A DNA stretch of 64,000 nucleotides from Candidatus Gastranaerophilales bacterium (lineage in GTDB: Bacteria; Cyanobacteriota; Vampirovibrionia; Gastranaerophilales; Gastranaerophilaceae). Below, piece by piece: positions 32,267 to 35,020 of this stretch. The first letter of the stretch is position 1. Each line of letters opens with the position of its first letter. Location of the stretch: the NCBI GenBank assembly GCA_944325545.1, contig CALVAM010000010.1, positions 1 through 64,000 on the forward strand. Direction: 5' to 3'. A model generated the notes under the pieces. The model was not told where the DNA came from, did not search any database, and saw only the letters and a list, made by a program, of their open reading frames with translations. A program made the position numbers and the translations under genes.

Positions 32267-32299
32267 GTCTCAACTCCTTTGCCTGCTTGGGTTTTGAGT
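32267..32299 (+). other. Hairpin upstream of the flagellin gene
   Basis: CTCAA near 32269 can pair with TTGAG near 32294 around a CU-rich loop. The 279 bp between rlmD and the flagellin gene otherwise hold AT-rich DNA, an 11-G run, and a short imperfect repeat around 32211-32230 (CTAATCCTAAGGAT). No ORF is seen. Confidence 0.25.
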
Positions 32300-32303
32300 A
32301 GTC

Positions 32304-32314
32304 GGGGGGGGGGG
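32304..32314. repeat. Homopolymeric G11 tract
   Basis: Eleven consecutive G occur in a very AT-rich region, 22 bp before the flagellin -35 box and 82 bp before the start codon. Tracts of this length are prone to slipped-strand mispairing, and in promoters they act as phase-variation switches. It could also be a sequencing error spot. Confidence 0.8.
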
Positions 32315-32336
32315 TAATACTCTATCTATAAGTTTT

Positions 32337-32365
32337 TTGACAGTTTTAAATAGTAAAAAAAGAAT
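32337..32365 (+). promoter_or_regulatory. Sigma-70-type promoter of the flagellin gene
   Basis: TTGACA (32337-32342), 17 bp and AAGAAT (32360-32365) lie 30 bp before the start. No FliA box is seen, unlike the two MGMxASQxRLL genes. Confidence 0.5.
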
Positions 32366-32395: not shown

Positions 32396-34135
32396 GTGGC
32401 GTTAACAATCAACACAAATCTTTCCAGTATAATAGCTCAATCATCATTAAAGAGTTCTACATATTCTTTAAATCAAGCAATTGAGAGAATGAGTACTGGT
32501 TTTAAAATAAATCATGCAAAAGACAACGCTGCGGGGTATTCTATAAAAACAAATTTATTGACAAAAATAAATGCCTATAGTGTGGCAGAAGAGAATGCAA
32601 GCTTAGGATTAGAAATGGTATTGACTGCATCAAGCTCATTGTCTATGATGTCAGATTTAACATCTCGTTTAAGAAGTTTAGCAGAACAAGCACATAATGG
32701 CACGTATGGTGCAGATTCTATGAATGCTATTGATTTAGAGGCTCAGTCTATAATAACAGAATTATATAGAATAAAGGAAACCGCTTCATATAATGGTATA
32801 AAATTGTTTAACGATTTTAATAATACTGTTCCGACTTTTGCTGACGGTAGTCAATTAGTACCAAATGCTCAAGGATTTTTGAAAGATATAGCAGTGAAAG
32901 ATACTAGTACAATGGACAAGTTATCTGATGTAGATCCTAATATTGAATTAACAGGAGGAACATATTCAATATCAACAGAAGCGGAGTTGGTGAAATTAGC
33001 TCAAATGGCAAATGCAGGTAAAATAACAGGTAGTTGTGAGTTTGTTTTAGCAAACGATATTGATATAAGTAATTATTGTAAATCAAACCTTGATTCTAAT
33101 GGAGAAGGAGGCTGGAAACCGATAAGTTTATATAATAATTTTATTTTTGATGGAAATGGGCATACTATATTGGGTTTGTATATAAATAAACCTTCTGCAA
33201 ATAATCAAGCTTTGTTTGTTGGCATGGGAAATATAAAAAATTTAGGATTAGTCGAGCCTAGTATTATTGGAAATATTTCCGTAGGAGCATTGTCTGGAAC
33301 TAGTTGGATAAGTTTTGAAAATTGTTATGTTTCTGGGGGGAGGGTGAAAGGGATAAGTTTTGTGGGTGGTTTGGCATCTAATTTGGATAGTGTATTGGTG
33401 AATAGTTGTTATACATCTTGTTCTGTTATTGGAGAAGTTGATGTTGGAGGTATCAGTGGTGGTGGTAAAATATCAACCATAATTAATAGTTATACAAATG
33501 GAGATGTTTCTGGGAATATTAATGTTGGAGGGATTATAGGAGGTGTTGATAAAAATTTTGTTTGTGGAATTCAAAAAAGTGCTGTTTATGGTGTTGTTTG
33601 TGGGCAAAGTAAATCAGGTATTTTTGTAGGAAATATGAATGGTAGTATTTCGAATTGTTTTTATAATGTAAATGTGAATAAAGATTATGGAATAGTTGGT
33701 GAGAATTCACCAACTACAAAGATAACAAATGTTTTGGGTATAAATTTTGGTGCAAAAATTGGATTACAAGTTGGTATAGATTCTTCTTCTAATAGTCAAA
33801 TAAGTTTTGAGGCTTGGTTTGCTTTAGATAGTTTAGATAGATTGAAGAGTAATAGTATGTCAGATGAGAATGTTTTTAGGTACATAGATAATATTCTTAC
33901 ACAGATAAATGAGAAGCAGACCGAATATGGGACAGTACAAAATAGATTAGAAAGTGTTTTAGAGCAGATATCAATATCATACGAGAATTTATTATCAACT
34001 CATTCTACAATAAGTGATGCCGATATTGCGGAGGAAAGTAGCGAATATATAAGGAATCAGATATTGCAGCAGGCAAGTGCTACATTATTATCAACAGCTA
34101 ACCAAAACCCAAGTATAGCATTACAGTTGTTGTAG
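32396..34135 (+). CDS. Flagellin with a GLUG-like beta-helix insert
   Basis: This 579-residue flagellin begins MALTINTNLSSI. Residues 1-145 form the conserved D0/D1 helices (RMSTGFKINHAKDNAAGY and SLAEQAHNGTYG), and about 490-579 the C-terminal D1/D0 helices (DADIAEESSEYIRNQIL, ending in ALQLL). The middle, about 170-470, is not a normal flagellin D2/D3 domain but a run of GLUG-like units such as GGWKPI, NGHTILGL, NVGGIIGG and VGGISGG, expected to fold as a right-handed beta-helix. It is exported through the flagellar channel and polymerises. The start is GTG 32396 after GTGGGGTGAT. No chaperone or hook gene lies nearby. Confidence 0.9.
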   Translation: MALTINTNLSSIIAQSSLKSSTYSLNQAIERMSTGFKINHAKDNAAGYSIKTNLLTKINAYSVAEENASLGLEMVLTASSSLSMMSDLTSRLRSLAEQAHNGTYGADSMNAIDLEAQSIITELYRIKETASYNGIKLFNDFNNTVPTFADGSQLVPNAQGFLKDIAVKDTSTMDKLSDVDPNIELTGGTYSISTEAELVKLAQMANAGKITGSCEFVLANDIDISNYCKSNLDSNGEGGWKPISLYNNFIFDGNGHTILGLYINKPSANNQALFVGMGNIKNLGLVEPSIIGNISVGALSGTSWISFENCYVSGGRVKGISFVGGLASNLDSVLVNSCYTSCSVIGEVDVGGISGGGKISTIINSYTNGDVSGNINVGGIIGGVDKNFVCGIQKSAVYGVVCGQSKSGIFVGNMNGSISNCFYNVNVNKDYGIVGENSPTTKITNVLGINFGAKIGLQVGIDSSSNSQISFEAWFALDSLDRLKSNSMSDENVFRYIDNILTQINEKQTEYGTVQNRLESVLEQISISYENLLSTHSTISDADIAEESSEYIRNQILQQASATLLSTANQNPSIALQLL

Positions 34136-34164
34136 GTTAGTGACTAGTGAATAGTGAATAGAGC

Positions 34165-34383
34165 AAGTAGGGTGCAATTCTTTGCACCCTACTTACTTAC
34201 TTTTATGGGGGGCATTTCACACCTTCCCCAATGGGGGAAGGTTGGGATGGGGAGTTGTTTAAGAGTAGAAGAGGATAAGTTTAGAAGGAGTTTTGTGTTT
34301 TCCCCTCCCCTAGAGGGAGGGGGTAGGGGGTGGGGTTTGAAAAAGGTGAAGCATAGTAAGGTGCAAAAAATTGCACCCTACCC
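34165..34383. repeat. GC-rich composite of nested hairpins, non-coding
   Basis: Two copies of a palindrome bound this 219-bp stretch: AAGTAGGGTGCAA/TTGCACCCTACTT at 34165-34194 (13-bp perfect stem) and GGTGCAA/TTGCACC at 34360-34377. Between them are CCTTCCCC/GGGGAAGG at 34222-34241 and CCCCTCCC/GGGAGGGG at 34302-34322, both perfect 8-bp stems. GC content is far above that of its surroundings. It looks like an intergenic repeat unit or non-autonomous mobile element and may also terminate flagellin transcription. It contains no real gene. Confidence 0.7.
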
Positions 34384-34384
34384 A

Positions 34385-35020
34385 CTATAAACTTAGATAT
34401 TTTTCTAGCAAAGATATCATTTCTTTTTTTGTGAGATTTGGCAAAATTTCTTTTATACAAGTAATACCTTCTATTTTTTCGTTGAATAAATTCTCTAAAA
34501 GCTCTTTATTATAATCATATAAGATAGAGCCGTGTTGTAAGATATATCCATTTTTTCGACATTGAGCGGATCCTATAAGTTTTTTCCCTTTATAGCATAC
34601 ATCTGCTCCTGTTGAAATTAACATACAATAATCAAAATTTGTGGAAATTTTTTTATTTTCTCCAAAGTCCAAATTTATCCCTAAATCTTTAAAAAAATCT
34701 ATAAAAATTCTTGAAAGATATTTATAGGATTCTACAACGCTTTCTCCATTAGGAATGAGATCTATTGGAGTGACTATACAATACGTTATTTCATTATCAT
34801 GTAATAGCGCTCTTCCGCCTGTTAATCTTCTTACTACGTTGATATCAGTAGGCATAGAAAACTCTTTTTGATTTCTTCCAAGAGAAACGCACATAGGCTT
34901 CCAGCCATATAAACGAATTAAAATATCGTTAGAATTATTTTTTATCGAGTTTTCAAGAATATCAGAATCTATTTTCATATTCTCAAAGCCTGAATTTATA
35001 CTATAGCCTAAATATTTCAT
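34385..35020 (-). CDS. Lipoate/octanoate transfer protein (LplA/LipM family)
   Basis: This 211-residue protein has the family motifs RRLTGGRALLHDNEITY and GKKLIGSAQ, then LQHGSILYD. A cysteine in FDYCMLISTGADV aligns with the catalytic Cys of LipM octanoyltransferases. It would attach octanoyl or lipoyl groups to carrier domains. It is somewhat shorter than LipM (about 280), lacking part of the C-terminus, so LplA-type or salvage activity is also possible. Its ATG overlaps the dGTPase stop (ATGA). Confidence 0.8.
   Translation of the reverse strand: MKYLGYSINSGFENMKIDSDILENSIKNNSNDILIRLYGWKPMCVSLGRNQKEFSMPTDINVVRRLTGGRALLHDNEITYCIVTPIDLIPNGESVVESYKYLSRIFIDFFKDLGINLDFGENKKISTNFDYCMLISTGADVCYKGKKLIGSAQCRKNGYILQHGSILYDYNKELLENLFNEKIEGITCIKEILPNLTKKEMISLLEKYLSL

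Follow-up and report, generated by a model that had tools for sequence, protein, structure and literature searches.

The flagellin gene examined here, in a window of 64,000 nucleotides from Candidatus Gastranaerophilales (non-photosynthetic Cyanobacteriota of the gut), encodes a protein whose predicted centre was confirmed, by structure modelling and profile comparison, as a right-handed beta-helix of the GLUG/M26-N type and not a flagellin D2/D3. We consider it rather probable that GLUG beta-helix flagellins of this kind and giant FliD caps make up a phase-variable set, which would present an adhesive or antigenic surface in the gut. The flagellin gene and its parts are as follows.

32396..34135, + strand: flagellin gene, 579 aa, GTG start (open reading frame with Flagellin_N and Flagellin_C matches)
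32396..32818, + strand: N-terminal D0/D1, residues 1-141 (PF00669 at residues 5-141, E 1.6e-27)
32918..33760, + strand: predicted central right-handed beta-helix, residues ~175-455, GLUG/M26-N-like, before the D1 hairpin (AF2, VIA-align, and profile)
33764..33805, + strand: D1 beta-hairpin motif LQVGIDSSSNSQIS, residues 457-470, after the insert (by comparison with the compact paralogue C3 and solved flagellins)
33881..34132, + strand: C-terminal D1/D0, residues 496-579 (PF00700, E 5.1e-18)

Both ends of the protein were intact, in agreement with the sequence-only reading, which had proposed a flagellin with conserved D0/D1 ends. Both Pfam domains were detected, and the ends (within residues 2-574) aligned with many solved flagellin filaments at Z of ~18-20 in VIA-align, D0 being of low confidence in the AF2 monomer model. 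The region 3' of the gene (34160-34390 of the window) contains GC-rich intergenic inverted repeats (CCTTCCCC...GGGGAAGG, CCCTCCCCTAGAGGGAGGGGG).

The centre spans about 290 residues and carries VGGxxG-type motifs at residues 296, 323, 350, and 377, with a period of exactly 27 residues. The AF2 model, built on a 52-sequence alignment (mean pLDDT 86), rendered residues 151-450 as a repetitive, all-beta structure, with pLDDT block means mostly of 88-98; folded with no alignment, the centre yielded a model of no use (pLDDT 40). Residues 175-476 of the model were aligned by VIA-align to 3n6z, the putative IgA1 protease BACOVA_03286 of Bacteroides ovatus (Z 28.9, rmsd 2.6, 253 residues, 26% identity), and four more IgA1-protease chains were matched at Z of 21.6-25.0. 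A Foldseek search with the whole chain was headed by flagellins, the match of the centre being seen only with the second aligner. A profile of six centres alone retrieved 3n6z (E 4.1e-25) as well as an IgA1 protease (E 1.2e-11). The earlier proposal of a GLUG-like beta-helix of the IgA-protease-like kind was thus borne out by a confident model, and the modelled centre showed no match to flagellin D2/D3, the fold to be expected had the proposal been wrong.

The claim of GLUG-type repeats as such held only in part. The VGGxxG motifs are present, and GLUG exceeded its curated cut-off in three paralogues (C7, C1_123, and C1_135) in the genome scan, C1_135 scoring 20.4 as a whole protein against a cut-off of 20.5; however, Pfam GLUG (PF07581) was not called on the window flagellin at E<=0.1, let alone at the curated cut-off, its motif being degenerate with a period of 27. 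Peptidase_M26_N matches were found in C1_135 and in the giant FliD of the same genome. No HExxH zinc motif was found in the 52 aligned proteins, the flagellins of this genome, or its giant FliD, and a protease function of the centre was therefore rejected as unlikely.

The predicted beta-helix is inserted before the LQVG hairpin of D1, away from the usual D2/D3 site, a point that goes beyond the earlier reading. In compact flagellins (C3, L145, and L154), the LQVG hairpin follows the NG motif after 12-13 residues, and a further 135-138 residues lead from it to the end. In all of the GLUG flagellins measured (48/48), the gap from the NG motif to the hairpin was 259-433 residues and that from the hairpin to the end only 119-130, indicating that all extra residues precede the hairpin and that none are inserted after it. 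The aligned N-terminal stretch of solved flagellins (e.g., 8cxm and 7sqd) crosses the LQVG hairpin to residue 153-162, followed by the outer domains, and the ordinary paralogues C5, C1_1, and C1_4 of the same genome have their extra residues after the hairpin. Since those of the GLUG flagellins precede it, the predicted beta-helix represents an insertion at another site and not a modified D2/D3.

The 1.82-Mb genome encodes eight flagellins and FlgL at scattered loci. Cataloguing of the paralogues' centres, which the sequence-only reading had suggested, revealed four long flagellins of the GLUG type (554-588 aa) and four ordinary ones. FlgI-, FlgL-, and FlgK-like proteins of the same genome were also read from its sequence, and some members of the order Gastranaerophilales have complete flagellar gene sets (PMC4040986). 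The aligned GLUG centres were 28-64% identical to the window copy; in D0/D1, dozens of columns were invariant, and this invariance was kept over 16 and 52 homologues.

A second, enlarged cap protein was found in the same genome, on contig C34.

L039:292-11237 (contig C34): FliD-like open frame of giant size (3,648 aa or more) with GLUG cassettes, filling nearly the whole 11,237-bp contig

This frame starts with FliD_N (E 8.9e-14) and contains 21 GLUG stretches and one Peptidase_M26_N match; it exits the contig, placing the C terminus beyond the contig end, so that the length is a minimum. Its cassettes were 48-65% identical in protein and 65-73% in DNA to the centre of the C7 flagellin. A FliD of normal size (578 aa) is also encoded in the genome. 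Complete giants with FliD_N, GLUG, and FliD_C occur in relatives, and the 61 FliD frames in the genus comprised 34 of normal size and 27 enlarged ones of 864-6,137 aa. Judged from these sequences, filament and cap carry the same cassettes of predicted beta-helix, which the earlier reading had not noted. No recent conversion tract between flagellin and FliD cassettes was found, the top DNA identity being ~73%, and recent gene conversion between them is unsupported.

A poly-G element was located upstream of the window flagellin gene.

32268..32345, + strand: conserved poly-G promoter-like element (model R1, E 1.3e-12; leave-own-genome-out model R2, E 7.7e-10)
32294..32299, + strand: TTGAGT, putative -35-like hexamer (-35 peak at offsets -10/-9; spacer to TAATAC of 15 bp with G11)
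32304..32314, + strand: G11 homopolymer, missed by the earlier reading
32315..32320, + strand: TAATAC, putative -10-like hexamer adjoining the 3' end of the G run (-10 match peak at offset 0)

The G11 is one of just three G/C runs that reach 9 or more in the 1.82-Mb genome, where ~0.1 would be expected from base composition alone, and each of the three precedes a GLUG flagellin. With an element model made from sequence alone, the strong hits in the genome were four in number (E 6e-14 to 7e-6), one before each GLUG flagellin and none elsewhere, the best remaining hit standing at 0.03; a model made without the own genome recovered three of the four sites and nothing else at E<=0.001. Among the fetched flagellins, a run of G8 or longer within 700 bp upstream preceded 27 of the 65 long flagellins and none of the 22 ordinary ones (p 9e-5), whereas 38 of the 65 long flagellins had no run within that distance; L141, the sole "short" flagellin with a run, is a GLUG flagellin truncated by a contig end. 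Besides its G8 element, C1_123 has another homopolymer 165 bp upstream (L034:6646-6657; C12 when read in the orientation of the gene), and in L124 the contig end shortly before a GLUG flagellin consists of 65 C (1-65), perhaps an assembly artefact.

At 27 loci, the match to TATAAT was highest immediately behind the run (offset 0, z 4.2) and that to TTGACA at offsets -10/-9 before it (z 2.3/3.2), and these fixed offsets suggest that the run makes up most of the promoter spacer. A long homopolymer, here G11, at a promoter-like element with this -10-like box is one of the marks of a contingency locus. The -10-like box directly after the run suggests slipped-strand phase variation of the promoters of GLUG flagellins. 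Run length ranged from G8 to G18 among loci of different species, and the deduced spacer would be 15 bp with G11 (about 14-15) and 17 bp with G13; the window allele might be off, because its predicted spacer of 14-15 bp is shorter than the usual 17. Translational phase variation by the poly-G run was ruled out, since no reading frame leads from the run to the start codon without meeting a stop. AAACCC-containing flanks were conserved outside the promoter boxes, and the folding signal for secondary structure in the element was not above that of shuffles. As for the sigma-70-like promoter claimed previously, a match does exist (TTGACA-N17-AAGAAT, 32337-32365, 10/12), but it constitutes weak evidence, because four such sites were found with 2.2 expected by chance. 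The poly-G element is a more telling promoter feature than this weak match. A sigma-28 pattern test yielded a single, doubtful match, which lies before C1_135, and none elsewhere.

The 30 element loci in relatives preceded 15 flagellins and four Pmp-like proteins, with eight at contig ends and three before nothing recognizable. The flagellins behind the element were of the GLUG type or were giant types with RTX-like repeats. The latter, in L178, L181, and L195, have repeat centres of the GNLDDTI and GKGNDTI kind, and the Pmp-like proteins, in L180, L183, L193, and L196, are secreted and carry GGAIYN...GTIGDITGDFIGNYA repeats. In other genomes of the genus, exact G9 runs occur at scattered places, none of the 30 examined lying upstream of a flagellin; a run by itself is thus no specific sign in relatives, and poly-G alone was rejected as a genus-wide flagellin mark. 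G-rich GGGGGTAAAT-like repeats not tied to flagellins were also observed in relatives (L218, L235, L237, and L239).

From the computed features (flagellin ends, beta-helix fold, insertion site, paralogues, sharing with FliD, and association of element and gene), we infer the following mechanism. The GLUG flagellin would be exported and polymerized via D0/D1, with the GLUG/M26-N beta-helix, in the loop before the D1 hairpin, replacing D2/D3 as the outer surface of the filament and projecting from each subunit. Polymerization would array thousands of copies along the filament, and the giant FliD would put many helices at the tip, so that filament and tip together would give the cell, in the animal gut, a surface that is adhesive or varies in its antigens. 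Slippage of strands in the G run would alter the -35/-10 spacer and raise or lower the output of each GLUG flagellin randomly and independently, and the cell population would carry mixed filament coats. The beta-helical surfaces of filaments and caps are probably adhesive or antigenic, and a role in surface interaction is supported by the promoter element being common also to Pmp-like proteins. In a broader and more tentative reading, to which we give slightly less than even weight, the flagellum of these non-photosynthetic gut Cyanobacteriota would be a switchable, multi-valent adhesive and antigenic display, composed of phase-variable beta-helical or RTX-like flagellins and giant FliD tips, with Pmp-like proteins co-regulated via the poly-G element.

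The same data can be read differently. The beta-helix may be a structural or shielding outer domain without a ligand, serving in drag, sheath-like stiffening, or protection from protease, phage, or antibody, with the variation of paralogues reflecting immune or phage evasion. Such a role agrees with PMC8931119, in which outer domains of filaments are described as often dispensable for motility and structurally diverse, and with centres that diverge far more than the ends; the element would suit antigenic switching just as well. The cassettes at the FliD tip and the element common to Pmp-like proteins fit adhesin-type biology at least equally but are compatible with shielding too, and we regard a purely shielding domain as unlikely, though deserving of serious weight. 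The adhesive or antigenic display is still the reading we prefer, and it also has to be weighed against two accounts of the genes themselves. The poly-G element could be a fixed regulator site or a site promoting recombination (e.g., G-quadruplex-assisted) that shuffles GLUG cassettes among flagellins and FliD, as long G runs adjoin multi-copy mosaic genes, the C7 flagellin and FliD cassettes are 65-73% identical in DNA, and the AAACCC-containing flanks are conserved beyond the promoter boxes. The lack of a recent conversion tract, together with a run length of 8-18 and -10/-35-like peaks at fixed offsets, as a promoter spacer predicts, makes this distinctly improbable. That the GLUG flagellin genes are decaying duplicates, divergent and no longer made or assembled, is very improbable: one relative's copy is frameshifted (L064/L138), but the D0/D1 residues are invariant, the frames are open in nearly all, and the family is kept across the genus. 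The former locus (L064:2105-3785, the same as the L138 locus) has its GLUG flagellin in two overlapping frames, a frameshift, error, or pseudogene.

Phase variation by poly-G/C in promoter spacers is known for surface-protein genes, as in Neisseria porA, where a G run lies between the promoter boxes. The element described here resembles it in that -35-like and -10-like boxes flank a G run before surface-protein genes, but the genes here are flagellin structural genes and their switching is putative. Homopolymeric tracts in Campylobacter phase-variable flagellar modification genes alter the flagellar surface, and there the tract is in a glycan-modifying gene, whereas here it is upstream of flagellin genes (PMC3068675). 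The closest precedent for the protein is flagellinolysin (FlaMP), a group of flagellins whose hypervariable region contains a metallopeptidase (PMC5595980). Both have ordinary flagellin ends and a whole foreign domain as the outer part of the filament; in contrast to flagellinolysin, the domain here is a predicted GLUG beta-helix without HExxH, lies before the D1 hairpin, is also found in the FliD cap, and is associated with a poly-G promoter element. BACOVA_03286 (3n6z) and the beta-helix of M26 IgA1 proteases (7uvk and 6xjb) belong with the centre in fold and in sequence family, but here the catalytic motif is absent and the module is on flagellin and FliD, not on a wall-anchored protein. 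No paper on a flagellin with GLUG, or with a beta-helix together with hypervariable and D2, was found in the openly licensed literature. Variation of flagellin outer domains is already known; here, one lineage has the same adhesin-like module on filament and cap, at an unusual insertion site and behind an apparent slippage switch. If true, the flagellum of an abundant, little-studied gut group would also be a variable organelle of attachment or antigenicity.

The closest related loci were found in Candidatus Gastranaerophilales and Melainabacteria MAGs, several of them bearing names of isolates from gut or rumen. In a survey of 38 genomes of the genus, flagellins were present in 38/38 and GLUG above the cut-off in 25/38. 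The fetched GLUG frames in the genus were flagellins or FliDs except for L045 (2139-5015), a GLUG-like protein of 958 aa that is neither, and confinement of GLUG to filament and cap across the genus was thereby ruled out. A protein search of the phylum identified GLUG flagellins close to that of the window (E<=1e-50) in at least 8 of 386 genomes, in three genera of one family, a lower bound because up to three candidates per genome were scored. One relative encodes a flagellin of 2,084 aa (L072:5609-11863) with at least eight GLUG stretches and one M26_N match.
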